In this document: in pieces, positions 23,813 through 49,800 of the stretch | Position numbering within the stretch: the stretch's first letter is position 1 | How the letters are laid out: each line of letters starts with the position of its first letter | Assembly (NCBI GenBank): GCA_026389265.1 | Contig: JAPLIE010000015.1 | Coordinates: forward strand, 1-49,800 | Source of the DNA: Cyanobacteriota bacterium | GTDB taxonomy: Bacteria > Cyanobacteriota > Cyanobacteriia > PCC-6307 > Cyanobiaceae | Length of the DNA: 49,800 nucleotides | Reading direction: 5' to 3' | Notes under the pieces: model-generated | Databases searched by the model: none | What the model saw: only the letters and a program-made list of their open reading frames with translations | What the model was told of the DNA's origin: nothing | Translations under genes and position numbers: made by a program

Positions 23813-24100
23813 CCGCTGCTGCCGCCGAAGCTCGCCGATCCCTTCTGGCTGCTGGCCTTCACCGGGGCCTTCTGCACCAATGGCTGCCTGGCCCAGCTGG
23901 CGTTGCTACTGCTGCTCCTGGCGGCAGCGCGCGAACCCCAATCGGTGTGGCATCAGGCCCGCCGCCTGCTGGTGCGCCGCTGCTCGCGGCTGGTGGTGCT
24001 GGGGCGGGTGCTGCTGCTGGCGCCGCTGCTGGCGATGGGGTTTGCGGTGAGCGCCCGGCGCACCACCCTGCCGCCCCGGCAGGAGCCGGTGCTGCCATAG
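23813..24100 (+). pseudogene. HpsJ-like membrane protein remnant (H1)
   Basis: Open frame without a start codon in position: PLLPPKLADPFWLLAFTGAFCTNG, a Leu-rich helix, then VLLLAPLLAMGFAVSARR and PVLP-stop. It matches the start of remnant H2 and the end of H3 and H4, and in layout the full HpsJ-like protein at 46947. The cytoplasmic coiled-coil middle (QAPPLSAADQRQG… in H3/H4) is missing, so this is an internal-deletion derivative. The region 23658-23812 shows no gene. Confidence 0.65.
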
Positions 24101-26209: not shown

Positions 26210-26312
26210 GGATCGAGCAGCTCGAACAGGGCGGCATTGCTGAGCTGGGGGTCCTCGATGGCCACGGGTCCGTCCAATCGCGGCAGCGTGGCCGCGGAGC
26301 GTGTCAGCCGGG
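26206..26312 (-). pseudogene. Antitoxin C-terminal fragment upstream of VapC
   Basis: Encodes ARLTRSAATLPRLDGPVAIEDP, LSNAALFELLDP-stop: the toxin-binding tail of the cognate antitoxin. It is nearly identical to the longer fragment at 35116-35328. The DNA-binding half has been replaced by HpsJ-like sequence on the opposite strand. Confidence 0.7.
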
Positions 26313-26353
26313 CGCGGCACCAGCACCGTTGCGCCTCTGCTGGCGCTGGGGCG

Positions 26354-26500
26354 CAACTTGCGCTGCTGGTGATGTTTGTGCTGGCGGTGGCCTTGCCGCT
26401 GCTGCCGGCCAAGCTCGCCGATCCCTGCTGGCCGCTGGCCTTCTCCGGGGCCATCTGCACCAATGGCTTCCTGGCGGTGCTGGCGGTGCTGCTGCACGAG
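26354..26500 (+). pseudogene. HpsJ-like remnant (H2)
   Basis: Open frame ALLVMFVLAVALPLLPAKLADPCWPLAFSGA, CTNGFLAVLAVLL: the first two membrane segments of the same gene as H1, at high similarity. The C-terminal parts are absent. It ends at an unclear junction near 26500; the stretch to 26645 shows no gene. Confidence 0.6.
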
Positions 26501-27410: not shown

Positions 27411-27411
27411 G

Positions 27412-28414: not shown

Positions 28415-28744
28415 CTGCGGCTACGAGCGCAGCTGCGGCAACACGAAGCCCGGTTCAAACGCCGCCAGTCCGTCCTCCAGAGCCAACTCGCCGCCATCCA
28501 GGCCCCGCCCCTCTCGGCGGCGGATCAGCGCCAGGGCCTGCCGGCCCTGAAGGCCGATCTGCTCAGCCAGATCAAGACGCAAGAAACCAGCCTGCTCAAG
28601 CAAGCTGGCCCGCGGGTGCCCACCGAGGTGCTGATCAAGGACAGCCTGCGGGTGCTGCTGCTGGCGCCGCTGATGGCGATGGGGTTTGCGGTGAGCGCCC
28701 GGCGCAGCACACCGCCGCCCCTGCAGGCGCCGGTGCTGCCGTAG
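28415..28744 (+). pseudogene. HpsJ-like remnant (H3)
   Basis: Keeps the soluble/coiled-coil half and last helix: LRAQLRQHEARFKRRQSVLQ, PPLSAADQRQGLPALKADLL, QAGPRVPTEVLIKDSLRVLL, APLMAMGFAVSARR and PVLP-stop. The N-terminal membrane part is missing and the frame merges into the end of the HEPN region. It is nearly identical to H4 over this stretch. Confidence 0.7.
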
Positions 28745-29280: not shown

Positions 29281-29414
29281 AGTCAAGGCGTCGCCATCGC
29301 CGCGACTGGCGGACTGCGCCCACCTGTGCAGCTTCCGCGCCGAGTACGGCAACAAGGCCCGAGCGGGAAGGCTTGAACAGGATGTTTAAACTGATGGGTC
29401 AACAACAGGGTTCC

Positions 29415-30058: not shown

Positions 30059-30299
30059 TCGCGGGGCGGCTGGCCCACCGGCATGGGCTCACGCCGGAGG
30101 CGATCGACACCCTGGCGATTCCTGCAGACACCGATCTCCCCATCCGGTACTGCCTGAAGCGCCTCATAACAGCAGCTGGCGCCAGTCCGTCCTCCAGGGT
30201 GCCCACCTTCCGCAGCACTCTCAGGGGCTTTCCTTCTGCTGCCAGCTGGGTTCTGAACAGCGAGATCCGCCTCCAGGCCGGCTTCGCCTCGGCCCATCG

Positions 30300-30502
30300 C
30301 CTGATGCTGATGGGCCCAATGACGACCAGGTGGCGGCCGGTCGCTCCATGGCCGATGCGGTGTTGCGGGAGGCGGAATGCTTCGGTAGCGACCAACCCGT
30401 AGCCGCAGCAAAGCTCTGCGCCACAAGCTCGGCGTGAGTAGCCGGCTGCAGGTGGTGGCAAAGGCGCTGCAGCTGGGCCTGGCCAGGCTGTGGGGGCGCT
30501 GA
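30300..30502 (+). pseudogene. LuxR-type HTH remnant
   Basis: Two adjacent frames together resemble a NarL/LuxR-family C-terminal DNA-binding domain: DDQVAAGRSMADAVL in one, then LRHKLGVSSRLQVVAKALQLGLARLWGR-stop in another. The receiver domain and proper frame are missing. Nothing else recognisable lies in 30059-30299. Confidence 0.55.
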
Positions 30503-30708
30503 TGCGGTGGAGGCCCTCAGCTGCAGGGCAGTGGCTGGTGGGTTGTAAGATTCCCATTAGAGATCCCTGTTGGGGGAGTGGGTCCGGGAGTTTTTCGGCA
30601 AGGCCAGCGCTGGTCCCATAGGCCTACGCATGGTTCGGCCCGAACAAAATGATGCGAAATTGCATGGTAATAATATTTACTCCTCAAAGCGATGTTGGAT
30701 CGAATTAG

Positions 30709-31602: not shown

Positions 31603-31604
31603 AA

Positions 31605-31634
31605 GGGGGCCTCTCCGTCGAGAGAGGAGGCCCC
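31605..31634. terminator. Hairpin between convergent OMP and speA genes
   Basis: GGGGCCTC pairs with GAGGCCCC through a short, imperfect inner stem. The hairpin sits between the convergent stop codons and could end transcription from both sides. Confidence 0.5.
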
Positions 31635-31658
31635 ATGAGCCGCGGCGTGGGTCCTGGT

Positions 31659-33596
31659 TCAGCCCTGCAGGTAGGTGGTCTGGCGGAGGCTGCCCTCGAG
31701 GTGATCCATCAGGCGGCGGGCGTCGCGGATCGCCAGGTCGCCGCGGGTGATCGCCGCCTCACTGGCCACCCGCAGGCGCTCCAGCAACGCCAGCGGATCG
31801 TGCTCCATCGCCTGCAGCACCTCGGCGTTGGTGTCGCCCCGCACCACGTGATCCACGCTGTAGCGCCCCCCCGCGGTGAGGCGGATGTGCACGGCATTGG
31901 TGCTGCCGAAGAGGTTGTGGAGGTTGCCCATCACCTCCTGGTAGGCGCCGCCGAGGAACAGGCCGATCCAGTAGGGCTGCTCGGCCTGGAGTTCATGCAG
32001 CTCCAGCAGGGCCTTGCTGTGGCCCCGATCGATGAAGCGAGCCAGCTTGCCATCGGAATCGCAGGTGAGGTCGGCCAGGGTGCCCAGCCGCGTGGGCTGT
32101 TCATCGAGGCGGTGCAGCGGCAGCACCGGGAAGAGCTGGTCGATGGCCCAGGTGTCGGGCGCTGAACGGAACACCGAGAGATTGGCGTAATAGGTGCCGG
32201 CCTGGGAGGCCCGCAGCCGCTCCAGCTCCACGGGCACCGGTGTGCCGGCGGGCAGGTCCTCGAGCCGCCGGGCGATGGTGGCGCTGCAGGACGAGGTGAG
32301 CTGCTCAGCCATGGCCCGCTCCGGCAGGCTCATGTAGCCGAGCCGGAAGGCGGCCAAGGCGTCGTCGCGGAACTTGAGGGCATCGTTCCAGGCCTCCTGC
32401 AGGCGCTCCGGCGGCAGGGGTTCGTGGCCGCTCACCCCGGCAAAGGTGTCGCGCAGGTTGCGCACGATCAGCGGCTCCTGCTCTCCCGGCTCCGGCGCCG
32501 TGATCGGCGGCCGACTGGCGCCCAGCACGTTGAACACCAACACCGAAAAATGGCTGGCGATGGCACGGCCGCTCTCGCTCACCAGGGTGGGCATGGTCAC
32601 GCCGTGGGGTTCGCAGCACTCCCGCACGGTGGCCACAACGTCGTTGGCGTAGTTCTGCAGGGAGTAGTTGGTGGAGGCGGCGGTAGCGGTGCGGCTGCCG
32701 TCGTAGTCGATGCCCAGGCCGCCGCCCACATCAAGGAAACCCATCGGCGCCCCCAGGCGGGTGAGTTCCGCGTAGAGCTGGCCGGCCTCCTGGAGGGCGT
32801 CCTTGAGCACGGCGATGTCGTTGATCTGGCTGCCGATGTGGAAGTGCAGCAGACGCAGGTCGGCCAGCAGGCCAGCGGCGCGCAGGGCCTCCACGGTGGC
32901 GAGCAGATCGGGGATCGAGAGGCCGAACTTGGCCCCCTCCCCCACCGAGCTGCCCCAGCGGCCGGTGCTGCGGGTGGAGAGCTTGGCGCGGATGCCGATG
33001 AAGGGTGCCGCCCCCAGCTCGTTGCTGGCGGCGATGATCCGCTCCACCTCATCGGCCTGCTCGATCACCACCACCGGCTGGCGGCCGAGGCGGCGGGCCA
33101 GGATCGCGGTTTCGATGTAGCGGCGGTCCTTGTAGCCGTTGCAGATCAGCAGGGCCTCGGGATCGTCGAGCAGCGACAGGGCGATCAGCAGCTCGGCCTT
33201 GCTGCCGGCCTCTAGGCCGAAGTGCCAGCGGCGGCCGCTCTCCACCAGCTGCTCCACCACGTGGCGCTGCTGGTTGCACTTCACTGGAAACACGCCCTGA
33301 TAGCGGCCGCGGTAGGCGTATTGGGCGATGGCCCGCTCGAAGGCGGCATGGAGCCGCTCCAGCCGGTCTTCGAGGATGTCGTCGAAGCGGATCAGCAGCG
33401 GCAGGCTGAGGTTGCGGCCCTGCAGCTCTCCCACCAGTTCCACCAGATCGAGGGAACCACCGCGGTCGCCGCGGGGCTGCACGATCACATGGCCCCGATC
33501 GCTCACGCTGAAATAGGGATCTCCCCAGCGGTCGATGCCGTAAAGGGCGGCACCGTCGGCGGCGCTCCAGGTGCCGGTGGGATTGGCGAGCACCAT
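31659..33596 (-). CDS. speA: Biosynthetic arginine decarboxylase
   Basis: A 645-residue PLP enzyme converting arginine to agmatine, the first step toward putrescine/spermidine. The PLP lysine lies in VFPVKCNQQRHVVE; GVFPVK, HFHIGSQINDI, DVGGGLGIDYDGS and SESGRAIASH are fold-III signatures in the right order. TSSCSATIA and LTCDSDGK mark the C-terminal part. Start ATG 33596 gives the family length. Complete; not in an evident operon. Confidence 0.95.
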   Translation of the reverse strand: MVLANPTGTWSAADGAALYGIDRWGDPYFSVSDRGHVIVQPRGDRGGSLDLVELVGELQGRNLSLPLLIRFDDILEDRLERLHAAFERAIAQYAYRGRYQGVFPVKCNQQRHVVEQLVESGRRWHFGLEAGSKAELLIALSLLDDPEALLICNGYKDRRYIETAILARRLGRQPVVVIEQADEVERIIAASNELGAAPFIGIRAKLSTRSTGRWGSSVGEGAKFGLSIPDLLATVEALRAAGLLADLRLLHFHIGSQINDIAVLKDALQEAGQLYAELTRLGAPMGFLDVGGGLGIDYDGSRTATAASTNYSLQNYANDVVATVRECCEPHGVTMPTLVSESGRAIASHFSVLVFNVLGASRPPITAPEPGEQEPLIVRNLRDTFAGVSGHEPLPPERLQEAWNDALKFRDDALAAFRLGYMSLPERAMAEQLTSSCSATIARRLEDLPAGTPVPVELERLRASQAGTYYANLSVFRSAPDTWAIDQLFPVLPLHRLDEQPTRLGTLADLTCDSDGKLARFIDRGHSKALLELHELQAEQPYWIGLFLGGAYQEVMGNLHNLFGSTNAVHIRLTAGGRYSVDHVVRGDTNAEVLQAMEHDPLALLERLRVASEAAITRGDLAIRDARRLMDHLEGSLRQTTYLQG

Positions 33597-33959
33597 CGGG
33601 CCCCGGGTTGTGGTGGATTGCGTGGCTGGAATCTAGTCAGCGGCGTGGGTGGCGCCTGGGCCATGGCACCCGCCGGCCGCCTCCTGCTGATCCCACCCAA
33701 TCGGGGGCGAGCTCACATGACCCGATCGCCTGCGGCCGGAAGCCTTCTTGCCTCGCCTGCCCCACCCGTGACGTTCAGGCTCTATGGCCGGGCTCGGGCG
33801 GGCGGCTTCGTTCTTTCAGCTCTTGGCGCTCAACAGTCCCAACCCCTCAGCATCACCGCCGGCCGGCACCGCCAGCGGCGTGAAAGGTCCAAGGCGCCCC
33901 CTTCCAGAAGCGGGTGAGAAGGGACGCCTGCAGCGGAAGCTTGAGTCAGTCGCATTCAG
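33597..33959. other. Gene-free stretch upstream of speA and of the Phd-VapC module
   Basis: GC-rich to about 33950, then AT-rich. It presumably holds the speA promoter on the minus strand, but no clear box is visible. No convincing gene or repeat is seen. Confidence 0.4.
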
Positions 33960-33987
33960 GCTAGCTTTAAAAATCATCAAGCTAGCT
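33960..33987 (+). promoter_or_regulatory. Paired GCTAGC operator candidate for phd-vapC
   Basis: GCTAGC palindromes at 33960-33965 and 33981-33986 are spaced 21 bp centre to centre, two DNA turns, just before the Phd start. The spacing suits two antitoxin dimers on one DNA face. Inferred from pattern and position. Confidence 0.5.
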
Positions 33988-33993
33988 CTATTT

Positions 33994-34287
33994 ATGCCGG
34001 ACTCCTCCCCCGACCCTTGCCGGTGCGAGGCCCGCCTGACGGTCTCGTTAGCGGACGCCAAGAACCATCTCTCGGCCCTGGTGGCTCGGGTGGAACAGGG
34101 GGAAGAGATCGCAATCACCCGTCGGGGGGTGCCGGTGGTGCGGCTGGTGCCCGATCCCGGGGATCGCGCCGGACGTGCTGGGCGCCACGAGCGGGTGGTC
34201 ACGGCGCTGGAGCGGCTGCATCAACTGCGGAGCGGCGTCGTCCTGGAGGGCGACCTGCGGCTGATCGCCCGGGAGGGACTGGATTGA
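33994..34287 (+). CDS. Phd/YefM antitoxin
   Basis: A 97-residue antitoxin from ATG 33994: RLTVSLADAKNHLSALVARVEQGEEIAITRRGVPVVRLVPDPG is the Phd fold, followed by a basic region and the toxin-binding ALERLHQLRSGVVLEGD. An upstream frame exists, but ATG 33994 fits the motif and follows the paired palindromes. Its stop overlaps the toxin TTG start. Confidence 0.85.
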   Translation: MPDSSPDPCRCEARLTVSLADAKNHLSALVARVEQGEEIAITRRGVPVVRLVPDPGDRAGRAGRHERVVTALERLHQLRSGVVLEGDLRLIAREGLD

Positions 34288-34712
34288 ACCAGGCGATCGC
34301 AACCTCCGCGTTTGTGCTCGACAACTCCGTGCTCTGCGGCTGGTTCCTCGCCAACCAAGCCTCTCCCTACAGCGATGCGGTGGCCGGGCTGCTCCCTGTG
34401 GTCGATGCCCACGCCCCGTGGTTGCTGCAGCTGGAATTCACCAATGTGCTACGCACCGCATGCCGCCGCGGCACTCTGCCGGTGGCTACGGCCCGCGAGA
34501 TCGTGGATCAGGTGGCCCTACTGCCGATCCGCATCGATGCCGTTCCTCCCCAGCCGACCGCCCTGCTGAGCCTGGCGCTGCGCTTCCAGCTCACCAGCTA
34601 CGACGCGGCTTATTTGGAGCTCGCCCTCCGGCTCCAGCTGCCGATCGCCACCCGCGATGACGCGCTAACTGATGCTGCCTGGGCTGCTGGGGTGGGGGTG
34701 CTCACCGCCTGA
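34284..34712 (+). CDS. VapC-family PIN toxin
   Basis: A 142-residue PIN toxin starting at TTG 34284 (TTGA overlap): FVLDNSVLCGWFLANQ (first Asp), LLQLEFTNVLRTA (Glu), LTSYDAAYLELALRLQLPIATRDDAL (later acids), ending AAWAAGVGVLTA. Intact; it makes a full module with the preceding Phd. Confidence 0.88.
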   Translation: MNQAIATSAFVLDNSVLCGWFLANQASPYSDAVAGLLPVVDAHAPWLLQLEFTNVLRTACRRGTLPVATAREIVDQVALLPIRIDAVPPQPTALLSLALRFQLTSYDAAYLELALRLQLPIATRDDALTDAAWAAGVGVLTA

Positions 34713-34760
34713 ACGGGCGAGCCCACGGTGAGCCAGGGCGTGACGCGGCGGCGGCGGGGG

Positions 34761-35119
34761 TCATAGCAGCGGCAGCCTCACCAGGCCTTCAAAGCGTTCG
34801 AAATCGCGATCGAAACTCACCAGGCGCCAGCCATTGGCGATCGCCAGGGCCGCCAGATGGGCATCGGTGCAGAGCCGGGCCGGCAGCTCAGCGCCCCGCA
34901 GCAGGTGGTGAAACACCTCCCAGCCGTTGTGCTCCGGCTCGGCCAGCTTCACGCCAGGCTGCTGGCACAGGGCTTCCAGCAGGGCAGAAGCTTCTGCAGC
35001 GTTTCTCACGGCTGTGCCTATCAACTTCGGCTGGCACACCAGGCGCGCTGGTGGATGTGTTCGGGCCAGGCCAACGCCAGCCAGACGTTCAGATCCGGCA
35101 GGTCAGCGGTAATGCTCAT
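34761..35119 (-). pseudogene. VapC paralogue with ~100-bp internal deletion
   Basis: The C-terminal two thirds (CQPKLIGTAVRNAAEAS, LCTDAHLAALAIANGWRLVSFDRDFERF) are nearly identical to VapC 25775-26209. The start region (LPDLNVWLALAWPEH) is also present near 35060-35119. About 100 bp between them are missing and the frame is broken, so this copy is dead. Confidence 0.85.
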
Positions 35120-35328
35120 GGATCGAGCAGCTCAAACAGGGCGGCATTGCTGAGCTGGTGATCCGCTATCGCCAGTGCGCCGTCCAACCGTGGCAGCGTG
35201 GCTGCGGAGCGTGTCAGCCGGGCGCACTCGGGTGCGGCGCTGAGCCCTTGCTCCACATAGCTGCGCAGCATCTGCTTGAGGGTCACACGTTCGCTGGCAG
35301 CGTGGGCAAGGCGATGGCGAAGCCCTGA
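35116..35328 (-). pseudogene. Antitoxin fragment paired with the deleted VapC
   Basis: Frame AASERVTLKQMLRSYVEQGLSAAPE, LTRSAATLPRLDG, LSNAALFELLDP-stop: most of the antitoxin except its start. It is longer than the sister at 26206-26312. Its stop overlaps the VapC ATG at 35119. Confidence 0.7.
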
Positions 35329-35412
35329 TCAGGCCCCTGGCCCCCAGTTTTCCAGTTGCAGACCCGGCACCCTGGCGAATTCACGGGTGTTTTTGGTCAC
35401 CAGCGGCGCCTT
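35329..35412 (-). pseudogene. VapC C-terminal fragment
   Basis: Reads PLVTKNTREFARVPGLQLENW then Gly-Pro-Gly-Ala-stop. LVT.NTREFARVPGL.LENW is the classic C-terminus of a large VapC group. No upstream catalytic sequence remains. Confidence 0.75.
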
Positions 35413-35416
35413 CTCA

Positions 35417-35857
35417 CTGAGGGCAGCGGTGGTTCTGGGCTTTCTGTTGCTGTTTCCGCTGCAGGGCCTGGCCGCCTGGCGGGGTCTGGAGGCCGCCCGA
35501 TCGCTGGCCTATCGCGCTGGGCGGGTGCAGCAGGCCCGCCTGGGCCAGTTCCGCCAGGCGGTGGAGCGCTCCGCCACCATCGCCGAGCTCCAGAGCCAGC
35601 TCGCATCCATCCAGGCGCCGCCCCTCTCGGCGGCGGATCAGCGCCAGGGCCTACCGGCCCTGAAGGCCGATCTGCTCAGCCAGATCAAAGCCCAGGAAAC
35701 CAGCCTGCTCAAGCAGGCCGGCCCGCGTGTGCCCACCGAGGTGCTGATCAAAGACAGCCTGCGGGTGCTGCTGCTGGCGCCCTTGCTGGCGATGGGGTAT
35801 GCGGTGAGCGCCCGGCGCAGCACACCGCCGCCCCTGCAGGCGCCGGTGCTGCCGTAG
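35417..35857 (+). pseudogene. HpsJ-like remnant (H4, longest)
   Basis: Keeps a membrane helix (AAVVLGFLLLFPLQGLAAW), the coiled-coil middle (VQQARLGQFRQAVERSATIAEL, PPLSAADQRQGLPALKADLL) and the terminal helix VLIKDSLRVLLLAPLLAMGY. It lacks the first membrane pair and a proper start, having been fused at its 5' end to a VapC scrap. It overlaps H3 with near identity. Confidence 0.7.
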
Positions 35858-35884
35858 GGGTGGGGGGGGGCGGCTCCCTGCTCT

Positions 35885-35960
35885 TCAGCCCGCCCTGATC
35901 TTCTCCCGATCGATCACCAGCCCATGAAACAGGGGCGCTCCATCCAAACGGTCGACTGGC
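35885..35960 (-). pseudogene. Uma2 C-terminal fragment
   Basis: Reads PVDRLDGAPLFHGLVIDREKIRAG-stop, homologous to the fragment at 24119-24200 and in the same relation to an HpsJ-like remnant. Confidence 0.7.
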
Positions 35961-36000
35961 GGGCAACCGTGTCGCCACCGGTCGGGGTCGTGGTGATCAG

Positions 36001-36055
36001 GGAGCGGAAGCCATCGAATGACACCGGAGCGCTCCCTGGTGGCCTGGGTTCCTCC
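36001..36055 (+). pseudogene. MazE end / MazF start scrap
   Basis: Carries the last codons of MazE (GGAAGCCATCGAATGA) overlapping MazF codons MTPERSLVAWVP. It then breaks into the convergent VapC end. It is a third copy of the MazEF junction. Confidence 0.75.
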
Positions 36056-41318: not shown

Positions 41319-43850
41319 ATGACCACCGCCGAACCCCGCCGCCGCAATCTGCGCCTGCCAACGCCGGGCTGCTATGCCGATCCCGACCGCAGCGGCCTGA
41401 TGGCCGATGACGTGTTCGACGGCATGACCGAACACCTCTTTTACACGCTAGGCAAACTCGCCCCCGCGGCCAGCCGCCACGACCTCTACATGGCGCTCAG
41501 CTACGCCGTGCGCGACCGGCTGATGACGCGCTACCTGGCCGGCATCGAGGCGATCAATGCAACCCCCACCCGGGTGGTGGCCTACCTCTCGGCCGAATTC
41601 TTGATCGGCCCGCAGCTGGGCAACAACCTACTGATGCTCGGCATCCGCGATGAGGCTGCCGAGGCCCTGCGCCGCTTTGGGGTGGCCGACCTCGACGAGA
41701 TTTTGGAGGTGGAGGAGGAACCGGGGCTTGGCAATGGCGGCCTGGGCCGGCTGGCGGCCTGCTTCCTGGAATCGCTGGCCTCGTTGGAGATCCCGGCCAC
41801 CGGCTATGGCATCCGCTATGAATTCGGCATCTTCGACCAGCTGATCCGCGACGGCTGGCAGGTGGAGATCACAGATAAGTGGCTCAAGGGCGGCTGGCCC
41901 TGGGAGATCCCCCACCCCGACCAGTCCTGCTTCGTGGGCTTCGGCGGCCGCACCGAGAGCTACCGTGATGAGAAGGGCGCCTACCGGGTGCGCTGGATTC
42001 CGGCCGAGCACGCCATCGGTGTGCCCCACGACGTGCCGGTGCTGGGCTATCGGGTGAACACCTGCGACCGTCTGCGGTTGTGGCGAGCCGATGCCACCGA
42101 GAGCTTCGATTTCTACGCCTTCAACATCGGCGATTACTACGGCGCCGTGGAGGAGAAGGTGGGCAGCGAAACCCTCTCCAAGGTCCTCTATCCCAACGAC
42201 GGCACCGATGAGGGCCGGCGGTTGCGGCTGAAGCAGCAGCACTTCTTTGTGAGCTGCTCCCTCCAGGACATGCTCCGCAGCCTCGACCACCGCGGCATCC
42301 CGGTGCAGGACTTCCCAGACCACTGGGCGGTGCAGCTCAACGACACCCACCCGGCCATCGCCGTGGCGGAGCTGATGCGGCTCCTGATCGACGACAAGCA
42401 CCTCGACTGGGCAGACGCCTGGGACATCACCAGCCGGGCCCTCTCCTACACCAACCACACCCTGCTGCCGGAGGCCCTGGAGAAATGGGGCGTGGACCTG
42501 TTCAGCAACCTGCTGCCCCGCCACTACGAACTGATCTGCGAGATCAACCGTCGTTTCCTGCAGCAGGTGCGGCTGAAGTACCCGGGCAATGACCAGATCC
42601 TGCGCAAGGTGTCGATCATCGATGAGGAGGGCCGCAAGACGGTGCGCATGGCCCACCTGGCCACGATCGCCAGCCACCATGTGAACGGGGTGGCCGCCCT
42701 GCACAGCGACCTGGTGAAGACTGAGCTGTTCCCGGAATTCGCGGCGATCTGGCCCGAGAAGTTCACCAATGTCACCAATGGCGTCACGCCGCGGCGCTGG
42801 GTGGCCCTGGCCAACCCACGCCTTTCGGCCCTGCTGGATGAGGCGGTGGGACCCGGCTGGGTCAGCGACCTCGACCAGCTGCGCCAGCTGGAGCGCTTCG
42901 CCGGCGATAGCGGCTTCCTGGAGCGCTGGGAGAGCACCAAGCTCAATGTGAAGCAGCACCTGAGCAACTACATCCATCGCCACACCGGCGTGGCGGTGGA
43001 TCCGCAGTCGCTGTTCGATGTGCAGGTGAAGCGCATCCACGAATACAAGCGCCAACACCTCAATGCCCTGCAGGTGGTAGCCCAGTACCTGCGCATCAAG
43101 AGCGGCGACACCGCCGGCATGGCGCCGCGCACGGTGATCTTTGGCGGCAAGGCGGCGCCGGGCTACGCGATGGCCAAGCTGATCATCCGCTTCATCAATG
43201 GCGTGGCCGACATGGTGAATGCCGATCCGGACACCGAAGGCCTGCTGAAGGTGGTGTTCCTGGCCGACTACAACGTGAAGCTGGGCGAGCGGGTGTATCC
43301 GGCGGCGGATCTCTCCGAGCAGATCTCCACCGCCGGCATGGAGGCCTCCGGCACGGGCAACATGAAATTCGCGATGAATGGCGCCCTCACGATCGGCACC
43401 CTCGATGGGGCGAATGTGGAGATCCGCGAGCAGGTGGGCGCCGAAAACTTCTTCCTGTTCGGCAAGACCACGGCCGAGATCGCGACGCTGCAAAAGCAGG
43501 GCTACCGGCCCTGGGAGCTGATTCCGAGCCTGGAGCCGATGCCCGAGGTGCTGCGACTGATTGAGCAGGGCCACTTCAGCAATGGCGATGGCGAGATGTT
43601 CCGGCCGCTGCTGCAGAACCTCACCGGCGACGACCGCTTTTATGTGCTGGCCGACTTCGCCGACTACCTTCGGGCTCAGACCGAGGTGGGCCTTGCCTGG
43701 ACCGACCGGAGCCGCTGGAACCGGATGTCGCTGCTGAACACCGCCCGCACCGGCTTCTTCTCCTCCGATCGCTCGATCCGCGACTATGCCAGCCGGATCT
43801 GGAAGGCGGAACCGTTCCCGGTCACGATCACCTGCGAGCTCGACGAGTGA
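41319..43850 (+). CDS. glgP: Glycogen phosphorylase
   Basis: An 843-residue enzyme releasing glucose-1-phosphate from glycogen; mobilises reserve carbon. Motifs: AYLSAEFLIGPQLGNNL, EPGLGNGGLGRLAACFLESLA, QLNDTHPAIAVAELMR, NVTNGVTPRRWV and the PLP-lysine region EASGTGNMKFAMNGALTIGTLDGAN. Length and order match the family. ATG 41319 has an AGGAG ribosome-binding site 5 bases upstream; in-frame codons before it are not conserved. Complete. Confidence 0.97.
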   Translation: MTTAEPRRRNLRLPTPGCYADPDRSGLMADDVFDGMTEHLFYTLGKLAPAASRHDLYMALSYAVRDRLMTRYLAGIEAINATPTRVVAYLSAEFLIGPQLGNNLLMLGIRDEAAEALRRFGVADLDEILEVEEEPGLGNGGLGRLAACFLESLASLEIPATGYGIRYEFGIFDQLIRDGWQVEITDKWLKGGWPWEIPHPDQSCFVGFGGRTESYRDEKGAYRVRWIPAEHAIGVPHDVPVLGYRVNTCDRLRLWRADATESFDFYAFNIGDYYGAVEEKVGSETLSKVLYPNDGTDEGRRLRLKQQHFFVSCSLQDMLRSLDHRGIPVQDFPDHWAVQLNDTHPAIAVAELMRLLIDDKHLDWADAWDITSRALSYTNHTLLPEALEKWGVDLFSNLLPRHYELICEINRRFLQQVRLKYPGNDQILRKVSIIDEEGRKTVRMAHLATIASHHVNGVAALHSDLVKTELFPEFAAIWPEKFTNVTNGVTPRRWVALANPRLSALLDEAVGPGWVSDLDQLRQLERFAGDSGFLERWESTKLNVKQHLSNYIHRHTGVAVDPQSLFDVQVKRIHEYKRQHLNALQVVAQYLRIKSGDTAGMAPRTVIFGGKAAPGYAMAKLIIRFINGVADMVNADPDTEGLLKVVFLADYNVKLGERVYPAADLSEQISTAGMEASGTGNMKFAMNGALTIGTLDGANVEIREQVGAENFFLFGKTTAEIATLQKQGYRPWELIPSLEPMPEVLRLIEQGHFSNGDGEMFRPLLQNLTGDDRFYVLADFADYLRAQTEVGLAWTDRSRWNRMSLLNTARTGFFSSDRSIRDYASRIWKAEPFPVTITCELDE

Positions 43851-43938
43851 TGGATCAGCCGGTGATGAAGCTGCTGGGATCTAGGTTTAAGCAATCGATT
43901 ATTCACTGATAATCACTAGCTTCGCAATCACAGGCTTC

Positions 43939-43987
43939 GCAATCAATAGCCTCGGCCCTGCCCAGCAGGGCCGAGGCTATTGATTGC
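43939..43987. terminator. 22-bp perfect hairpin downstream of glgP
   Basis: GCAATCAATAGCCTCGGCCCTG (43939-43960) pairs perfectly with its complement at 43966-43987 around a CCCAG loop. It is placed between the convergent glgP and 44016-44471 genes. No T-run follows, so it may act as a bidirectional terminator or RNA-stabilising hairpin. The segment before it contains a repeated CTTCGCAATCA. Confidence 0.7.
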
Positions 43988-44015
43988 GGTGGCTGAGCTT
44001 CAGCTCGGCGCTCGT

Positions 44016-44471
44016 TTAGCCCCGGTCGGGTAGATCAGGGGTCTGGTGCAGCAGGCGGTTGAGGCGCAGGCGGTCTGCATTGAGCGGATCGGGGGCCAGT
44101 TCACCGGCCACCTCGCGGAATTTCTGCTCCACCTCATCAGGCACCCGCACATCAAAGATGCGCTCCATCAGCACCTCAATCGAGAAGAGGTGGGCGTTGA
44201 TGTTCTCCAGGTCAGCCATCGCCTGCTGCATAGCATCCGGCTCGGCTCCGGCGGCGGAGGCGGCCACAGCCCGCCCCGCATCAGGAGATGGGGCTCCGGC
44301 GGCCCGTGCTCCCTCGGGGGCGGGGGGCTCAGCATCGCCATACTGCTTCTGAAGCTCCTCCAGCACCCGTCCCGCCAGGGTGCGGAAGGATTGGAGGGAG
44401 GCCCAGTTGAGCTCCTGCTGTTGCCGGAGACTGGAGTTCTCCCGGATCAGCTGGCAGGGCTCTTCAGGCAC
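44016..44471 (-). CDS. Hypothetical helical protein (151 aa)
   Basis: Starts LIRENSSLRQQQELNWASLQSFRTLAGRVLEELQKQYG, an amphipathic helix. An Ala/Pro-rich linker (residues ~48-78) follows, then a second helical segment (MQQAMADLENINAHLFSIEVLMERIFDV, VEQKFREVAGEL). No family recognised; soluble, possibly a coiled-coil scaffold. Confidence 0.6.
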   Translation of the reverse strand: MPEEPCQLIRENSSLRQQQELNWASLQSFRTLAGRVLEELQKQYGDAEPPAPEGARAAGAPSPDAGRAVAASAAGAEPDAMQQAMADLENINAHLFSIEVLMERIFDVRVPDEVEQKFREVAGELAPDPLNADRLRLNRLLHQTPDLPDRG

Positions 44472-44596
44472 CGCTTCCCTTGTGCATTGGTTCCCATCAT
44501 GGCACCGAACCCGGAGGGCTGGTGCCGCCTCCCCTCTTGGTAGCCATCAACTGAGCATGCCATCCTCGGCGCCAGGAGCCATCCGTCCCCTCTGCT

Positions 44597-45520
44597 GTGG
44601 TCGCCAGCGACAAGCTCTTCTATTGGCTGTTCCAGGAGCATGCCGAACGCCTGCAGCCATTGGTGGCTGCCCTCCTGCCGAGGATGGACGGCTATGTGTT
44701 CAGCGCGCCGGTGCTCAAAGAAAGGGAATATCGCCTCGATGGGCTGTTCCTGCCGCCCGCCGATCAAGCGGATCTGCCGGCCTTGATCCTGGAAGCCCAA
44801 ATGGCAGCTGATCCAGGCTTTCTGCTGCGGCTCAATGCCGAAACGGGCCGCTTGCTGCAGCAACAGGATCGCCAGGGTCGGCCGATCCGCCACTGGCAGG
44901 TGGTGGTGATCTGCCCGTCGCGGGAGCTCAATTTCGGTGATCCCACGCCGGTGCAGGAGTTTGTGCGCGAAAGGCTGGTGTGGATCGAACTGGCGCCCGA
45001 ACGCTTGCCCCCAACGGCGCCGCCCCTGCAGAGGGCCCTTGGCATGCTGCTGCTGCCGGAAGAGCAGCTGCCCCATTGCTCGAAGGCGATCCGAGCCGAA
45101 GTCGCCGGCACCAGCCTCGATGCCGAGATCGACGATGTGATCGCCGCTATCCTGGTGGCACGCTTTAGCGGCCGCACCATCCCCGAGATCTGCGCCATGG
45201 GTGGGATCACCGTCGACGACTTCACGAGCAGCGTGGCCTATCGCGAGATCTTTGGCTTGGGCCGCAAAGAAGGCCGCCAAGAAGGCCGCCAAGAAGGACG
45301 CCAAGAAGGACGCCAAGAAGGCCGCCAAGAAGGCCGCCAGGCAGAAGCCGCCGCCCTCACCCTGCGCCAGCTGCAACGCCGCTGCGGCATCCTCAGCTCG
45401 GCGCAACAGTCCCGCATCCAGGGCCTGCCCCTGGGCGATCTCGAAGCCTTGGCCGACGCCCTGCTCGACTTCCAGGGACCGGAAGACCTCAACGCCTGGC
45501 TGAGCCGCCACGCCACCTAA
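44597..45520 (+). CDS. Rpn/DUF2887-type nuclease with tandem-repeat linker
   Basis: A 307-residue PD-(D/E)XK recombination-promoting nuclease-like protein. The N-terminus has the catalytic core: DKLFYWLFQEHAERLQPLV, YRLDGLFLPP (Asp), LILEAQM (E-x-Q), VVVICPSRELNFGD. The middle domain ends AYREIFGLGRKEG and is followed by six 12-nt repeats encoding EGRQ. The DUF4351 tail is LTLRQLQRRCGIL…LPLGDLEALADALLDF. GTG 44597 start. The repeat count varies among relatives in this family, by general knowledge. Complete relative of the 2514 remnant. Confidence 0.8.
   Translation: MVASDKLFYWLFQEHAERLQPLVAALLPRMDGYVFSAPVLKEREYRLDGLFLPPADQADLPALILEAQMAADPGFLLRLNAETGRLLQQQDRQGRPIRHWQVVVICPSRELNFGDPTPVQEFVRERLVWIELAPERLPPTAPPLQRALGMLLLPEEQLPHCSKAIRAEVAGTSLDAEIDDVIAAILVARFSGRTIPEICAMGGITVDDFTSSVAYREIFGLGRKEGRQEGRQEGRQEGRQEGRQEGRQAEAAALTLRQLQRRCGILSSAQQSRIQGLPLGDLEALADALLDFQGPEDLNAWLSRHAT
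45269..45340 (+). repeat. 12-nt tandem repeat (six units) inside the Rpn-type gene
   Basis: Units GAAGGCCGCCAA or GAAGGACGCCAA repeat six times in register with codons, encoding EGRQ. Two units carry the A variant side by side, suggesting recent unit duplication. A slippage-prone tract; length change keeps the frame. Confidence 0.85.
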
Positions 45521-45569
45521 ACCCCTCCCGCTTCAGCGACCGCACAGTTCACAAGATCGGCGCTATCGG

Positions 45570-45881
45570 TCAGGCCGCCAGCGGACCGCCCAGGTCATCG
45601 AGATCGTTGCGGGAGTCGTTCGGATCGCCGGCCTCGGCCTGGGCGGGGAGGGGGATTTCGATCGAGGTCACCACGTTGATCACATCGCGCAGACGCATCC
45701 CATCAGCGAACCAGCCCATCGCCTGCCCCACATCGCCGCGGCGCTCGGCATCGTGGGCCTGCTCCTCATGGGCCTCGGCCAGCAGGGCCAGCCAGCAGAG
45801 GGTGCGGGCCTGCACCACCGAGAGATCGAGCTCATCGAGCTGGCTCTCGGCGATCCGCTCGCTCTCCTGCTGCACCAGCAA
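45570..45881 (-). CDS. Hypothetical protein (103 aa)
   Basis: Mostly helical acidic protein: ESERIAESQLDELDLSVVQARTLCWLALLAEAHEEQAHDAERRGDVGQAMGWFADGMRLRDVINVV in pieces, ending with a disordered Asp/Asn tail. Possibly starts at a TTG or the ATG-like LVQQ codon; the start is unsure. The upstream 45889-45912 contains a tandem CTAGTTGGTCA repeat. Family not recognised. Confidence 0.55.
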   Translation of the reverse strand: MLVQQESERIAESQLDELDLSVVQARTLCWLALLAEAHEEQAHDAERRGDVGQAMGWFADGMRLRDVINVVTSIEIPLPAQAEAGDPNDSRNDLDDLGGPLAA

Positions 45882-46087
45882 CCGCAGCCGCTAGTTGGTC
45901 ACTAGTTGGTCAGATGGGTGATCTGTTCCAGGTGGCTGTCCTACTATGGTAGGTGGTGATCTGGTGCCAAAGCTGATGTAGGTGCAGCCGGTGATCACCC
46001 CACCATCCACCTCCAAGAGCCTCTGCCAAGTTGGAGTTTCAACACATTTGGCTCCGATCCACAGTGCATTTGACGTCGATCCAAAGG

Positions 46088-46111
46088 TTGACCCTCCAAA
46101 TGTGCTATGAT
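46088..46111 (+). promoter_or_regulatory. Extended -10 promoter for the PEP-CTERM-like gene
   Basis: TGCTATGAT gives an extended -10 (TGn plus TATGAT at 46106-46111). A TTGACC box at 46088 is too close (12 bp) to serve as a normal -35. Transcription would start near 46118, leaving a ~25-nt leader before ATG 46143. Confidence 0.5.
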
Positions 46112-46142
46112 GGCGATGGCGTGTGTTAACCCTCCCACCACC

Positions 46143-46805
46143 ATGAAAAACATTTTTAAGATTGGAGCCGCTTGTGCTCTTGGCATGAGTTCCTTCATTC
46201 TTGCCTCCGGCACTCCTGTCAAAGCTGCTGCCTGTGTTGACAACTTACTCGGCTTGCTGTCGACGAACAACCCTTGCACTGACAGCCAAGGCTATGAATT
46301 TACATTCATTAACTCCACCGGTTTTAATACGTCTACAACCTTGGGGGTAGGCGATCAGTTTGCTTTCCAATCTGCTTTTGGCAATTTTCAATATTCACTC
46401 CAAGCAGCTACTGCCTATACAACTACTCCCGGCACTTATACTCTCTCCTATAAAGTCAAAGCTCCAACCGGAAAACTTTTGAGCCAGCTAACCTCTGGCC
46501 TGCAGTCTACAGACAACACTGCCTCCGGTAGTTGGACAATTGTAGGCACCCAAGGACAAGCGCAAACAACATTGGCCGCCCCACTGACTGCCACCGGCGG
46601 TGTTTACAATTATGCTCCCAAGCTTAGCGAGGATACTTTCACAGCAACCCTTGTGGTTAATAGTGGAAACATCAGTACTGTTGGAAGCATGCTCAAGTCC
46701 GCACCTAAGCTATCTGAGGTTCCCGGCCCTCTGCCGATTATCGGAGCTGGAGCCGCGTTTGGATTCTCCCGTAAAATCCGTCGCCGCATCCAAGCCTCTG
46801 CTTGA
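46143..46805 (+). CDS. Secreted PEP-CTERM-like protein
   Basis: A 220-residue exported protein from ATG 46143. Signal peptide (KNIFKIGAACALGMSSFILASGTPVKAAA), a beta-rich middle domain (YEFTFINSTGF, FAFQSAFGNFQYSL, YTLSYKVKAPTG), and the C-terminal sorting tail VPGPLPIIGAGAAFGFSRKIRRRI. That tail has the short Pro motif, hydrophobic stretch and basic end expected for exosortase-type PEP-CTERM relatives in cyanobacteria. AT-rich compared with the chromosome. Followed by a strong terminator. Confidence 0.75.
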   Translation: MKNIFKIGAACALGMSSFILASGTPVKAAACVDNLLGLLSTNNPCTDSQGYEFTFINSTGFNTSTTLGVGDQFAFQSAFGNFQYSLQAATAYTTTPGTYTLSYKVKAPTGKLLSQLTSGLQSTDNTASGSWTIVGTQGQAQTTLAAPLTATGGVYNYAPKLSEDTFTATLVVNSGNISTVGSMLKSAPKLSEVPGPLPIIGAGAAFGFSRKIRRRIQASA

Positions 46806-46842
46806 TCAAATTGATCAAAACCTAACTTTAAATTTTCTTAAG

Positions 46843-46867
46843 TCCTCCCTAACGGGAGGATTTTTTT
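46843..46867 (+). terminator. Rho-independent terminator
   Basis: TCCTCCC-TAAC-GGGAGGA is a perfect 7-bp stem with a 4-base loop followed by seven T. It ends the PEP-CTERM-like transcript 40 bp after its stop. Confidence 0.9.
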
Positions 46868-46946
46868 GCTTATTGCACACGTATTCATCATCCCCTAAGC
46901 TTTTTTCACAGTCCATGATAAACTTTTTTTCTGGTGAACCACAACC

Positions 46947-47705
46947 ATGTCTGTTGCTGAAGAAAACCGTGGATTAAATCCCGAAGGGCGCAGTCGCCTA
47001 AAAGCCAAAACAGCTTTAACGATTGCAATAATCGGCTGGTTGCTGATTGCCTTTAGTCTCAACGCACTCATATTCAACTCCTTCCCCTTAGAGCTCGCCA
47101 CACCTGAATGGCAACTTAATCTCATCGCTTCATTGATCTCAGCGAGCCCCTCTCTTCTGATTGGCGCCACGCTCATCGCCCTTTCACTGGTGTTTGATCC
47201 TTCGACAAAAAACCTGAAAGACTGGAATCTCATCGTGGCGCGCGCGGCTTCGTGGTTTGCAATTGTGCTGTTGCTGATCATCCCCTTACAGTTTTATCTC
47301 GGTTCACGCGTACTAAAAAGTCAATCGAACAGGAGCTACGAAGCGATCAATAATCTAAAGTCCATAGCTAAAGGAATCAGTGCTATCAATTCCGAGGCCG
47401 ATTTGCGCCTCTACGTGGCCTCACTACCTAATGCCCCAAGACTTCCCGCCAAGTTTGATGCCCCTTTCCCGGTGATCAAACAACGCGCGATAGAAAATAT
47501 CCAAGCCCAAATTAATGCAGGATCTGAAAACATTAAACTTCAAAAATCTGAAGGCCTTCAGGTTTTCCTGAAAGAGGCGATCAGAAACATGGCCCAAGCC
47601 ATCTTAATGACAGCCTCTTTTTCAGCCCTGGCTGCCCTTAATTCAAAGGCTACAAACGCGTTTACTAAACTCTTTACAAGCTTGTTGCCAAAATCGCTTC
47701 GATAA
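46947..47705 (+). CDS. HpsJ-like membrane protein, complete
   Basis: A 252-residue protein: helices ALTIAIIGWLLIAFSLNALIF, LISASPSLLIGATLIALSLVF and ASWFAIVLLLIIPLQFYLG. A long cytoplasmic/periplasmic helical part (NNLKSIAKGISAINSEADLRLYVASLP, VIKQRAIENIQAQINAGSENIK) follows, and a terminal hydrophobic segment (AIRNMAQAILMTASFSALAAL). This is the HpsJ layout (hormogonium polysaccharide protein J), of unclear mechanism. AT-rich. It is the complete counterpart of the four remnants at 23.8-35.9 kb, though clearly diverged from them. Confidence 0.65.
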   Translation: MSVAEENRGLNPEGRSRLKAKTALTIAIIGWLLIAFSLNALIFNSFPLELATPEWQLNLIASLISASPSLLIGATLIALSLVFDPSTKNLKDWNLIVARAASWFAIVLLLIIPLQFYLGSRVLKSQSNRSYEAINNLKSIAKGISAINSEADLRLYVASLPNAPRLPAKFDAPFPVIKQRAIENIQAQINAGSENIKLQKSEGLQVFLKEAIRNMAQAILMTASFSALAALNSKATNAFTKLFTSLLPKSLR

Positions 47706-47723
47706 TCGATCTTTTCTTAACGA

Positions 47724-47747
47724 GCCTGGCGGGACTCGAACCTACGA
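47724..47747 (-). repeat. tRNA 3'-end fragment (candidate att site)
   Basis: CTGGCGGGACTCGAACC (47726-47742) and the next ACGA match the 3' end and T-arm of the tRNA-Arg at 47992-48064. No other tRNA parts are present. Integration into tRNA 3' ends leaves exactly such copies. The motif is partly common to many tRNAs, so its source is not certain. Confidence 0.5.
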
Positions 47748-47855
47748 GGGAGTTCCCCAGGTGACGCGCTGGATTCAGCAGGACACGAGACGGGTCAATA
47801 GGTCTCAGCGGCATGGGCCCCCGCAGCCGCACATGCCCCCCCGGGAGGCAGTGGA

Positions 47856-47915
47856 TTTGCCTACCGTTTGCCTAAGCTTGGTCGATCCGGCACGATTTTC
47901 CTAGCTGCTTGCCTA
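47856..47915. repeat. TTGCCTA direct repeats in the att-like region
   Basis: TTTGCCTA occurs at 47856-47863 and 47867-47874 (11 bp apart), and TTGCCTA at 47909-47915. Direct repeats of this size beside an attachment core suggest integrase arm-binding sites. No integrase gene is in the window. Confidence 0.45.
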
Positions 47916-47991
47916 ACGGCAGAGGGAGGAGGAGTCGGTTATTTTGGCCCCTTTTTCCCTACACCCTTGCCGAACCACGGTGTTGCCGAAC

Positions 47992-48064
<73 letters not shown>

Positions 48065-48157
48065 ATAGTAGCCAGCCTATCGCGAGCGGTGGCCCATGCT
48101 CCAGCACACCAGCCATGGCAGGCATCGGCCGTTAGCCGACTGAGTAACCTGATTGTT

Positions 48158-48510
48158 GGAAAGCAGCCGAGGTGATCGCGATCGGTGGAGGGTTGCCGGG
48201 CTTCGGCCACGGTGGTGCTCCGGCCGGTTGAGGAAAGTCCGGGCTCCCCGATGGCCAGGCCTGCCGGGTAACGCCCGGTGCGGGCGACCGTGAGGACAGT
48301 GCCACAGAAACACACCGCCGATGGCGATTGGCGGGGCTCGCTCCGCCAGCCGCACAGGTAAGGGTGCAAGGGTGCGGTAAGAGCGCACCAGCGGCATCGA
48401 GAGGTGCCGGCTCGGTAAACCCCGGCCGGGAGCAAGGCCAGGGCTTCGGCCCGCGGAACAAGGGTTGGCCATCGTTCCCGTTCCGTTCCCCGGCTTATGT
48501 GCTGCTTTCC
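48158..48510 (+). ncRNA. rnpB: RNase P RNA
   Basis: Catalytic RNA of RNase P, which trims tRNA 5' leaders. Conserved A-type blocks are GAGGAAAGTCCGGGCTCC near 48230, ACAGAAACA near 48304, GGTAAGAGCGCACCAGC near 48377 and GGTAAACCCC near 48414. The ends are set by the P1 helix, GGAAAGCAGC (48158-48167) pairing with GCTGCTTTCC (48501-48510). Ends may be off by a few bases. Confidence 0.93.
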
Positions 48511-48579
48511 ACCTCTTGATCCTTTTGATGCGATCCGGCCCTGCTCGCGAGGCCGCTTCAGGCGTTCACTGCTCCTGCC

Positions 48580-48942
48580 TCAGTCTTCGCTCCAGGCTTC
48601 CTGCATCGAAAGATCGAGTGCACGTGCCAGCGTGAGGAGCACCTGCCGCACCACCTCAGGGTCGCTCCGGTCGATCGGCCCCTGCAGCTGCTGGCGCAGC
48701 ACGGTGGTGGGCAGCCAGCTCATGGCGAAACTGATTCTCTCCAGGCCACTCCCCTCCTGAAGGCTGAGCGGCACCGCCAGGGGATGGGCCTCCAGCCGGG
48801 GATCACTGCTGATCGGCACCACCACCCAGCGCTCCAGCACAGCCGTGGCTGCATCAGGGGCGATCACGATCACCGGCCTGGCCTTGGCATCGCCCAGGCT
48901 GCGGTTGCGGGCCCAGCGGTAGATCCGGCCGCGCTCAGCCAT
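48580..48942 (-). CDS. PemK/MazF-type toxin
   Basis: A 120-residue toxin from ATG 48942: AERGRIYRWARNR.LGDAKARPVIVIAPDAATA carries the G.IY…KARPV(I)V strand. VVVPISSDPRLEAHPLAV holds the Ser/Thr site, and the end is helical (VVRQVLLTLARALDLSMQEAW). RNA endonuclease by family. Overlaps the RHH antitoxin by 8 bp. Confidence 0.85.
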   Translation of the reverse strand: MAERGRIYRWARNRSLGDAKARPVIVIAPDAATAVLERWVVVPISSDPRLEAHPLAVPLSLQEGSGLERISFAMSWLPTTVLRQQLQGPIDRSDPEVVRQVLLTLARALDLSMQEAWSED

Positions 48943-49177
48943 CGAGACCCTGCAGCGCAGCCATCCCCATGGCTGCCCCATCGGCCATGGCGTGGTCGAG
49001 ATCGCCCCCCTGGATCTGAGCCAACTGGCCATAGGCCTCCTGCAGGCGCTCCAGTTCCCGGCGGCGCAGCCAGAACTGAATGGCCTCCGTTACCGACGCC
49101 GAGCGATTGCCGCCCAGGGCATCGAGGGCAGCCAGCAGCTCCTCATCCAGAGACACACTGATCGAACGGGTGGCCAT
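48935..49177 (-). CDS. Ribbon-helix-helix antitoxin
   Basis: An 80-residue antitoxin: MATRSISVSLDEELLAALDALGGNRSASVTEAIQFWL is the RHH DNA-binding part, and the remainder (LERLQEAYGQLAQIQGGDLDHAMADGAAM) binds PemK. Upstream palindrome TAGGAATCCTA at 49198-49208. Confidence 0.87.
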   Translation of the reverse strand: MATRSISVSLDEELLAALDALGGNRSASVTEAIQFWLRRRELERLQEAYGQLAQIQGGDLDHAMADGAAMGMAALQGLDG

Positions 49178-49197
49178 GGACCTGGCAATCTTGCTGC

Positions 49198-49208
49198 TAG
49201 GAATCCTA
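49198..49208 (-). promoter_or_regulatory. Palindromic operator candidate for RHH-PemK
   Basis: TAGGA-A-TCCTA, a perfect 5-bp inverted repeat, lies 20 bp before the antitoxin start within AT-rich DNA suited to a promoter. Likely autoregulatory site by position. Confidence 0.45.
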
Positions 49209-49342
49209 CTGGAATTGATAGCAACGATTCCCTGCCGGTCGAAGCTTTGCCACCAGGCCGTCCGGCGGCCGAACGGAAACGGGCGGGGGGCTCCCGCCGG
49301 GTAGAGGATGAAGCACGCACCTCCCCATCGTCCGCCGCCGCC

Positions 49343-49800
49343 ATGGGCCAGGCGTCCCGCACACCACCGATCAGCGGCCAGCGCCTAGAGCAGCTGAGCG
49401 CACTCCTGGCCAGCCTCGGGATCGATCCCGTCGCCAGTGGCAAGCCCGCCGGCGCTGGCCAGCTGCAGGCCGATGCCACGGCCCTGGCCCCGATCGAGGA
49501 GGCCCTCACCCACACCTCCACCGGCCGCGTCCGCAACCACGAACAGCTGGAATTCCTCGGCGATGCGGTGCTGCGGCTGGCCGCCGCCGAGTTCCTCGAA
49601 CGCCGCCATCCCTCCCTCAGCGTGGGCCAGCGCTCCGCCCTACGGGCCCAGCTGGTGAGTGATCGCTGGCTGGCCGAACTGGCCGAAGCGATCGATCTGG
49701 CCCCCCTGCTGCGGCTCGGGCCGGTGGCCCTCGGCGATGCCAGTGGCCGGGCCACCGTGCTGGCCGAATGCTGCGAGGCCCTCGTGGGCGCCCTCTACCG
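49343..49800 (+). CDS. rnc: Ribonuclease III (5' part, runs off the window)
   Basis: From ATG 49343, 152 codons are visible. The RNase III signature HEQLEFLGDAVLRLAAAEFL has the catalytic Glu/Asp residues, preceded by EEALTHTSTG and followed by LRAQLVSDRWLAEL and LAECCEALVGALY. The dsRNA-binding domain is beyond the edge. It processes rRNA and other double-stranded RNA. Confidence 0.9.
   Translation, partial: MGQASRTPPISGQRLEQLSALLASLGIDPVASGKPAGAGQLQADATALAPIEEALTHTSTGRVRNHEQLEFLGDAVLRLAAAEFLERRHPSLSVGQRSALRAQLVSDRWLAELAEAIDLAPLLRLGPVALGDASGRATVLAECCEALVGALY

Follow-up and report, generated by a model that had tools for sequence, protein, structure and literature searches.

Two adjacent genes in a 49,800-nt stretch of DNA from a freshwater cyanobacterium (in the following, the window) were found to be one copy of a dispersed two-gene cassette that recurs across the genus of the source organism. 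The first gene (gene 1) encodes a predicted secreted surface protein with a PEP-CTERM-like VPGPLP tail and the second (gene 2) an HpsJ-like membrane protein. It is reasonably likely that the locus holds one of the exosortase substrate-and-partner cassettes that are typical of a Cyanobium-like genus; this name is used since the relatives retrieved from named records belong to Cyanobium, Synechococcus and uncultured cyanobacteria, several of them from lakes. What is new here is the exosortase-type tail with a changed motif together with an HpsJ family linked to the substrates. The adjacency of the two genes and their high AT content had been described in a first-pass annotation of the sequence and were both confirmed, the GC content being 0.492 for gene 1 and 0.465 for gene 2 compared to 0.647 for the window (Table 1).

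Table 1. Features of the window considered in this study.
Feature	Position	Strand	Details
HpsJ-like fragment	23813..24034	+	remnant outside the pair
HpsJ-like N-terminal fragment	26306..26494	+	remnant outside the pair
HpsJ-like fragment	28472..28708	+	nearly identical to the 35.4-kb fragment (85 of 89 residues); outside the pair
HpsJ-like fragment	35423..35821	+	nearest to other paralogues; remnant outside the pair
Gene 1, predicted secreted surface protein	46143..46805	+	220 aa; VPGPLP (PEP-CTERM-like) tail
Sorting tail of gene 1	46719..46793	+	VPGPLP motif, hydrophobic helix, SRxxRRR basic cluster; tail profile
Intrinsic-terminator-like hairpin	46840..46870	+	10-bp stem, T-run; between gene 1 and gene 2
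Gene 2, HpsJ-like membrane protein	46947..47705	+	252 aa, four predicted membrane helices; model matches, AlphaFold2, hydropathy
Partial copy of tRNA-Arg 3' end (att-like site)	47720..47747	-	28 nt, 89% identity
tRNA-Arg (CCT)	47990..48065	-	landmark of the syntenic locus
RNase P RNA (rnpB)	48188..48513	+	landmark of the syntenic locus

Linkage of tail genes and HpsJ-like genes

The source genome assembly comprises 3.49 Mb in 214 contigs. A profile built from its ten full HpsJ-like proteins gave 18 matches in this genome, ten of full length and four partial ones in the window. All ten full copies match the HpsJ_like_A model NF050013 at an E-value of 0.01 or better. A second profile, built from eight tails of the source genome, identified 15 copies with E-values under 1e-6, among them the eight, and no convincing match in the window besides gene 1. 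The motif P(G/A)P(L/P) was present in all eight aligned tails, in which the near-invariant Pro-Glu-Pro of PEP-CTERM proteins was not found, and every tail protein of the source genome that was scanned falls below the cut-off of TIGR04155.

For seven of the ten full HpsJ-like genes, a tail gene lies directly upstream on the same strand. The remaining three are located on contig C161, with a tail 2.2 kb upstream, and on C4 and C91, without a nearby tail. The cassettes are dispersed across several contigs.

Next, the linkage was counted in ten near-complete genomes of the same genus, where 94 HpsJ matches were listed and 84 kept after ten short ones had been dropped. The nearest tail was found upstream, on the same strand and within 1.5 kb for 55 of these 84 genes compared to 0.26 expected by chance, so that the co-occurrence which the first-pass annotation had wanted to see in other genomes is given. 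Within the same distance, the nearest tail was upstream on the opposite strand in 11 cases, downstream on the opposite strand in five and downstream on the same strand in two, some of these tails being shared with a neighboring HpsJ gene. This results in 73 of 84 genes with a tail within 1.5 kb on any side and 11 without. Conversely, 70 of the 126 tails in these genomes are the nearest tail of a full HpsJ-like gene within 1.5 kb and 56 are not; an HpsJ-like gene is thus not required beside every substrate. In named Cyanobium, Synechococcus and uncultured cyanobacterial records, retrieved with a query built around one source-genome paralogue, a same-strand tail gene was located at most 312 bases upstream in 16 of 17 HpsJ loci (20 loci, three of them set aside for short flanks; L189 is the only one without a tail).

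HpsJ-like matches and tails are both present in all 37 genomes of the genus (source included). The VPGPLP-type tail was found in none of 23 genomes of other genera, 15 of which contain weaker HpsJ matches. The copy numbers of tails and HpsJ-like genes correlate weakly (rho 0.35), and among the 26 genomes that are at least 95% complete the correlation (rho 0.33) is not significant.

For 41 pairs, the similarity of the substrates was compared to that of the adjoining HpsJ-like proteins, resulting in a Mantel r of 0.23 (1 of 2000 shuffles as high). Among distant pairs no correlation was observed (rho 0.003), and the Mantel value for tail against HpsJ was 0.07 (379 of 2000 shuffles as high). The nearest neighbors of substrate and HpsJ concur in 17 of the 41 pairs. 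A specific co-divergence of the two proteins was rejected, since the correlation arises through close orthologues only; as far as sequence comparison can tell, the pattern fits inheritance as a unit rather than substrate specificity. Over the 41 pairs, the mature domains show hardly any resemblance between copies (median similarity 0.05), and the sorting tails are near-constant (median 0.78).

The hairpin between the two genes was analyzed using a strict criterion, that is a stem of at least five pairs with at least four G-C, followed by at least six T in eight bases, at most 160 bases past the gene end. In the loci examined, such a structure was found behind 37 of 62 distinct tail-gene ends and behind none of 58 HpsJ ends, whereas letter-shuffled tail-gene ends gave 0.4. 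Of 37 distinct same-strand pairs, 28 have it between the two genes; many of these pairs are orthologues and hence not independent. As it also follows nine of 23 tail genes that lack an HpsJ-like gene behind them, it is not peculiar to the pair. The stem sequences vary between groups of pairs and the base pairing is kept. Since a looser scan of the region gave three hits where 2.9 are expected by chance, the case for a terminator is based on its recurrence across pairs. The substrate gene seems normally to terminate its own transcript.

No promoter could be found between gene 1 and gene 2 in a consensus promoter scan. By eye, a TA-N-N-N-T-like box, possibly a promoter of the HpsJ-like gene, was seen upstream of this gene in most orthologues of the site, located between the terminator and the HpsJ start (L145-L151, L153, L155, L160, L163).

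Properties of the two proteins and of the exosortase

The start codon of gene 1 is an ATG and its reading frame is already open from position 46107. The N-terminus resembles a signal peptide as judged by eye. The C-terminal sorting tail VPGPLPIIGAGAAFGFSRKIRRRIQASA makes up the final 28 residues of the protein, includes the basic cluster KIRRR and matches the eight-tail profile, which contains this tail itself, with an E-value of 1.5e-15. The order of motif, membrane helix and C-terminal basic cluster was apparent from the tail alignment and from the modeled helix 199-219. The mature part is rich in T (16.5%), S (11.0%) and N (6.1%), about 33% in total, and contains few basic residues (K and R 3.7%). 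Cys accounts for 1.2%, which is higher than the published PEP-CTERM value of 0.4 (+/- 0.2). Whether exosortase models recognize the tail, a point raised in the first-pass annotation, received a divided answer: TIGR04155 gave 10.6 bits, below its curated cut-off of 21.6, and no Pfam PEP-CTERM match was obtained, whereas the eight-tail profile recovered the 15 copies described above.

The AlphaFold2 model of gene 1 (pLDDT 62) shows a low-confidence beta-sandwich followed by the C-terminal helix, and the product is probably a beta-sandwich surface protein. Its fold matches are weak (Z 7.6 and lower) and comprise C-domains of proteases, a collagen-binding domain and carbohydrate-binding modules. 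As the best rows of this search are protease and collagen-binding domains, ahead of the sugar-binding modules, binding of polysaccharide by gene 1 is only a possibility.

Gene 2 matches NF050013 with 64.3 bits (cut-off 140; E 1.2e-17) over residues 25-228, corresponding to profile positions 5-209 of 217, and NF038305 with 31.3 bits (curated cut-off 60). It is thus a divergent HpsJ-like protein with significant full-length similarity, and the assignment made in the first-pass annotation holds, though below the curated cut-offs. The AlphaFold2 model (pLDDT 90) contains, among others, the helices 12-44, 53-83, 88-146 and 174-232, with a long helical hairpin predicted between membrane helices 3 and 4. 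The hydropathy peaks, a basic second loop and a basic C-tail suggest four membrane passes, with residues of about 121-208 forming a periplasmic helical hairpin. The accessible part of PMC1569441 places the motif residues of the exosortase and the PEP motif on the periplasmic side, which would be the same side as this hairpin. Foldseek gave no PDB match to the model with an E-value at or below 0.001, which does not make gene 2 a new fold. The best VIA match was a designed nanopore with a Z of 9.6, a value usual among helical bundles.

The presence of an exosortase, likewise named as a check in the first-pass annotation, was confirmed. One full, CrtA-like exosortase is encoded in the source genome on contig C175 (PF09721 99 bits; CrtA model 125.9 bits, cut-off 150). 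It carries the motifs ACNG, NTIR and HDDIG, and its surroundings resemble a polysaccharide locus by eye. No HpsJ match was found on this contig. Within the genus, 34 of 37 genomes (source included) have an exosortase match, and the remaining three (G005, G021 and G030) contain tails and gave no such match. G030, which is 95% complete, has 45 tails and only four HpsJ-like matches. In the source genome, a partial exosortase match of 44.6 bits (profile 92-166 of 254), probably a remnant, adjoins a tail gene on contig C25. The two features are located at 6749-7255 and 7379-8101 of L025, and the tail is the strongest tail match of the source genome.

In other genera, 20 HpsJ-like matches were found in 15 genomes; judged by coordinates, an exosortase is no more than 1 kb away for five of them and 3.3 kb away for one. 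Taken together with the counts in the genus, some lineages link their HpsJ-like proteins to exosortases, and the Cyanobium-like genus links them to tail genes. The gene order at locus L184 of another cyanobacterium is PFE-CTERM protein (39.6 bits, cut-off 24), HpsJ_like_A (201.5 bits, cut-off 140) and CrtA-like exosortase (146.3 bits, cut-off 150).

Compared to the PEP-CTERM/EpsH system, as far as its criteria are given in the accessible part of PMC1569441, the cassette proteins share the signal-peptide-like start, the short C-terminal motif, the membrane helix and the basic cluster. A Ser/Thr/Asn-rich mature part, many copies per genome and an exosortase in an apparent polysaccharide locus are further similarities. 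The difference is that P(G/A)P(L/P) replaces the Pro-Glu-Pro core and that the window tail scores below the TIGR04155 cut-off. Four predicted membrane helices and a CrtA-like exosortase in the genome are in common with HpsJ_like_A (NF050013), which is described as cyanoexosortase A-associated; here, however, many copies exist, and they adjoin tail genes rather than the exosortase, which is on another contig. The L184 cluster with its PFE-CTERM protein (NF050011) likewise has a tail protein directly upstream of HpsJ on one strand, but in that cluster the exosortase gene comes next, and the motif of the tail is other than VPGPLP. In Nostoc punctiforme, one exosortase likewise stands beside many tail proteins connected to surface and polysaccharide according to the accessible part of PMC12188702; it is of the CrtB type, in contrast to the CrtA type found here.

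The term HpsJ is absent from the main text of PMC12188702, as is cyanoexosortase from that of PMC8205485. In open-licence PubMed Central, no paper was found that joins HpsJ and exosortase or Cyanobium and exosortase, nor one on PFE-CTERM or on a PGPLP motif in cyanobacteria, which does not imply absence in print.

Proposed function and alternative explanations

In the proposed mechanism, the product of gene 1 would be exported by Sec as a Thr/Ser-rich surface protein and held in the inner membrane by its C-terminal VPGPLP tail. The CrtA-like exosortase encoded elsewhere would process the tail, and the protein would be passed to the cell surface or the exopolysaccharide. The predicted periplasmic hairpin of the HpsJ-like protein probably docks or escorts tail proteins at the exosortase. 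The intrinsic terminator would end the substrate gene, so that the partner may be made separately or at a lower level. This scheme, in which the tail protein is anchored, processed and delivered outside with HpsJ as its membrane partner, is drawn by analogy with the deletion of CrtB in Nostoc, by which the polysaccharide (HPS) was loosened from the filament and several PEP-CTERM proteins of the exoproteome were changed, as stated in the accessible part of PMC12188702. A more far-reaching idea is that picocyanobacterial HpsJ-like proteins are dedicated partners of individual substrates, with one exosortase, a near-constant VPGPLP tail and about ten adaptors, most of them encoded beside their own substrate and deciding when or where it is delivered. 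We consider this conceivable and regard it as tentative.

The HpsJ-like proteins might instead make or export exopolysaccharide, with the tail protein as an adhesin tying it to the cell; the linkage would then reflect a shared pathway with no direct contact to the exosortase. The Nostoc phenotype would fit this explanation, and by eye several HpsJ-like genes in other genera adjoin a glycosyltransferase-like gene. The hormogonium polysaccharide HpsJ model (cut-off 260) gave 240 and 313 bits for two HpsJ proteins scanned from these loci, and carbohydrate-binding modules are among the beta-sandwich matches of gene 1. These fold matches are weak, however, with the model at low pLDDT, Z under 8 and protease and collagen-binding domains leading. 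In addition, the cassettes of the source genome are scattered, no polysaccharide genes were recognized by eye in their 1.5-kb flanks, and ten full-length copies would be many for a single pathway. Overall, a role in polysaccharide production appears rather unlikely. Still less credible, and in our view hardly to be expected, is a bacteriocin-like pair, in which the membrane protein would confer immunity to its secreted toxin-like partner. This would explain why variable secreted domains of such low mutual similarity stand beside a recurrent polytopic membrane protein, and the HpsJ-like fragments in a repeat-rich zone would also be in line with it. It is contradicted by the near-constant sorting tail, by the adjacency of HpsJ and exosortase in other genera and by the many tail genes without HpsJ, and gene 1 gave no toxin family match with curated and Pfam family models.

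A recently acquired surface module integrated at tRNA-Arg was the reading of the first-pass annotation. Its notion of a linked surface unit stood, as the unit recurs across the genus, and its notion of an acquisition did not. An arrival of this kind would account for the low GC content and for the 28-nt copy of the tRNA 3' end, an att-like site that was indeed found beside the pair. The full pair is also absent from the site in G023, the relative with the most similar tRNA/rnpB stretch, and both genes are missing from it in five of 20 relatives. Against this stand the presence of the pair at the same locus in 11 of the 20 relatives, the position of the window HpsJ in the tree, the one-sided tRNA fragment and the reduced GC content of the site orthologues. 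The acquisition is thus largely contradicted by synteny and tree (see below) and is improbable.

With the substrate-and-partner cassette as the preferred explanation, a testable role for the HpsJ-like proteins follows from their customary position next to tail-bearing surface proteins in one genus; their family names (exosortase-associated, hormogonium polysaccharide) come without a mechanism in the literature examined. The P(G/A)PLP tail represents an added sorting signal, here scored below the curated cut-offs. Because the curated models under-score it, many surface proteins of freshwater picocyanobacteria may escape annotation as exosortase substrates. How such pairs are expressed may be approached through the terminator that recurs between the genes.

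History of the tRNA-Arg/rnpB site

The tRNA-Arg/rnpB loci of 20 relatives were compared to the window, including the open frame starting beyond rnpB, which we take to be rnc. The pair is located before the tRNA (first slot) in six of the 11 relatives that carry it at this locus (G003, G004, G009, G017, G018 and G025) and between tRNA and rnpB (second slot) in five (G006, G008, G011, G012 and G013). HpsJ alone was found in G005, close to a contig end, a tail alone in G002, G022 and G023, and neither gene in G007, G014, G015, G019 and G020. Both slots are occupied in G018 (L155), where a pair precedes the tRNA-Arg and another tail gene follows it.

A tree was computed from 57 distinct HpsJ-like proteins of the examined loci. 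In it, the window HpsJ clusters with five first-slot copies (100/97), and this clade is sister to a second-slot clade of four distinct rows (100/98). The HpsJ of G018 and G005 are found elsewhere inside the same larger group. The exact position of the window HpsJ is less sure due to its long branch and unusual composition. Low GC is strongest in the window pair; the site orthologues are also below their own surroundings, more mildly. The 28-nt tRNA copy sits between the pair and the tRNA-Arg on one side only and does not bracket the pair. The only other tRNA-Arg match in 43001-49800 comprises 14 nt near 44.0 kb and belongs to a different part of the tRNA. These data are better explained by vertical descent accompanied by losses, perhaps following a duplication around the tRNA, than by a recent arrival, and the window pair gives the impression of a long-standing occupant of its site, not of a newcomer.

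The four HpsJ-like fragments, whose existence elsewhere in the window had been recognized in the first-pass annotation, are part of a repeat-rich zone on the plus strand (23813-36053) with several duplications of about 50-310 bases at 82-96% DNA identity. The suggestion that gene 2 is the complete counterpart of these decayed copies was abandoned. Their best matches are the paralogues C4, C24 and C204a and not the window gene, which matches one fragment with 24% (E 0.17); the other three were not among the matches listed.

Two further observations concern the neighborhood of the pair. Between rnpB and rnc, the minus strand of the window carries a PemK/MazF-like gene paired with a CcdA/MazE-like one (48580-49177), and in G007 (L157) tblastn matches to both of these genes were found upstream of the tRNA. 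On the other side, a DUF2887/DUF4351 gene with an in-frame EGRQ repeat is located at 44597-45520.
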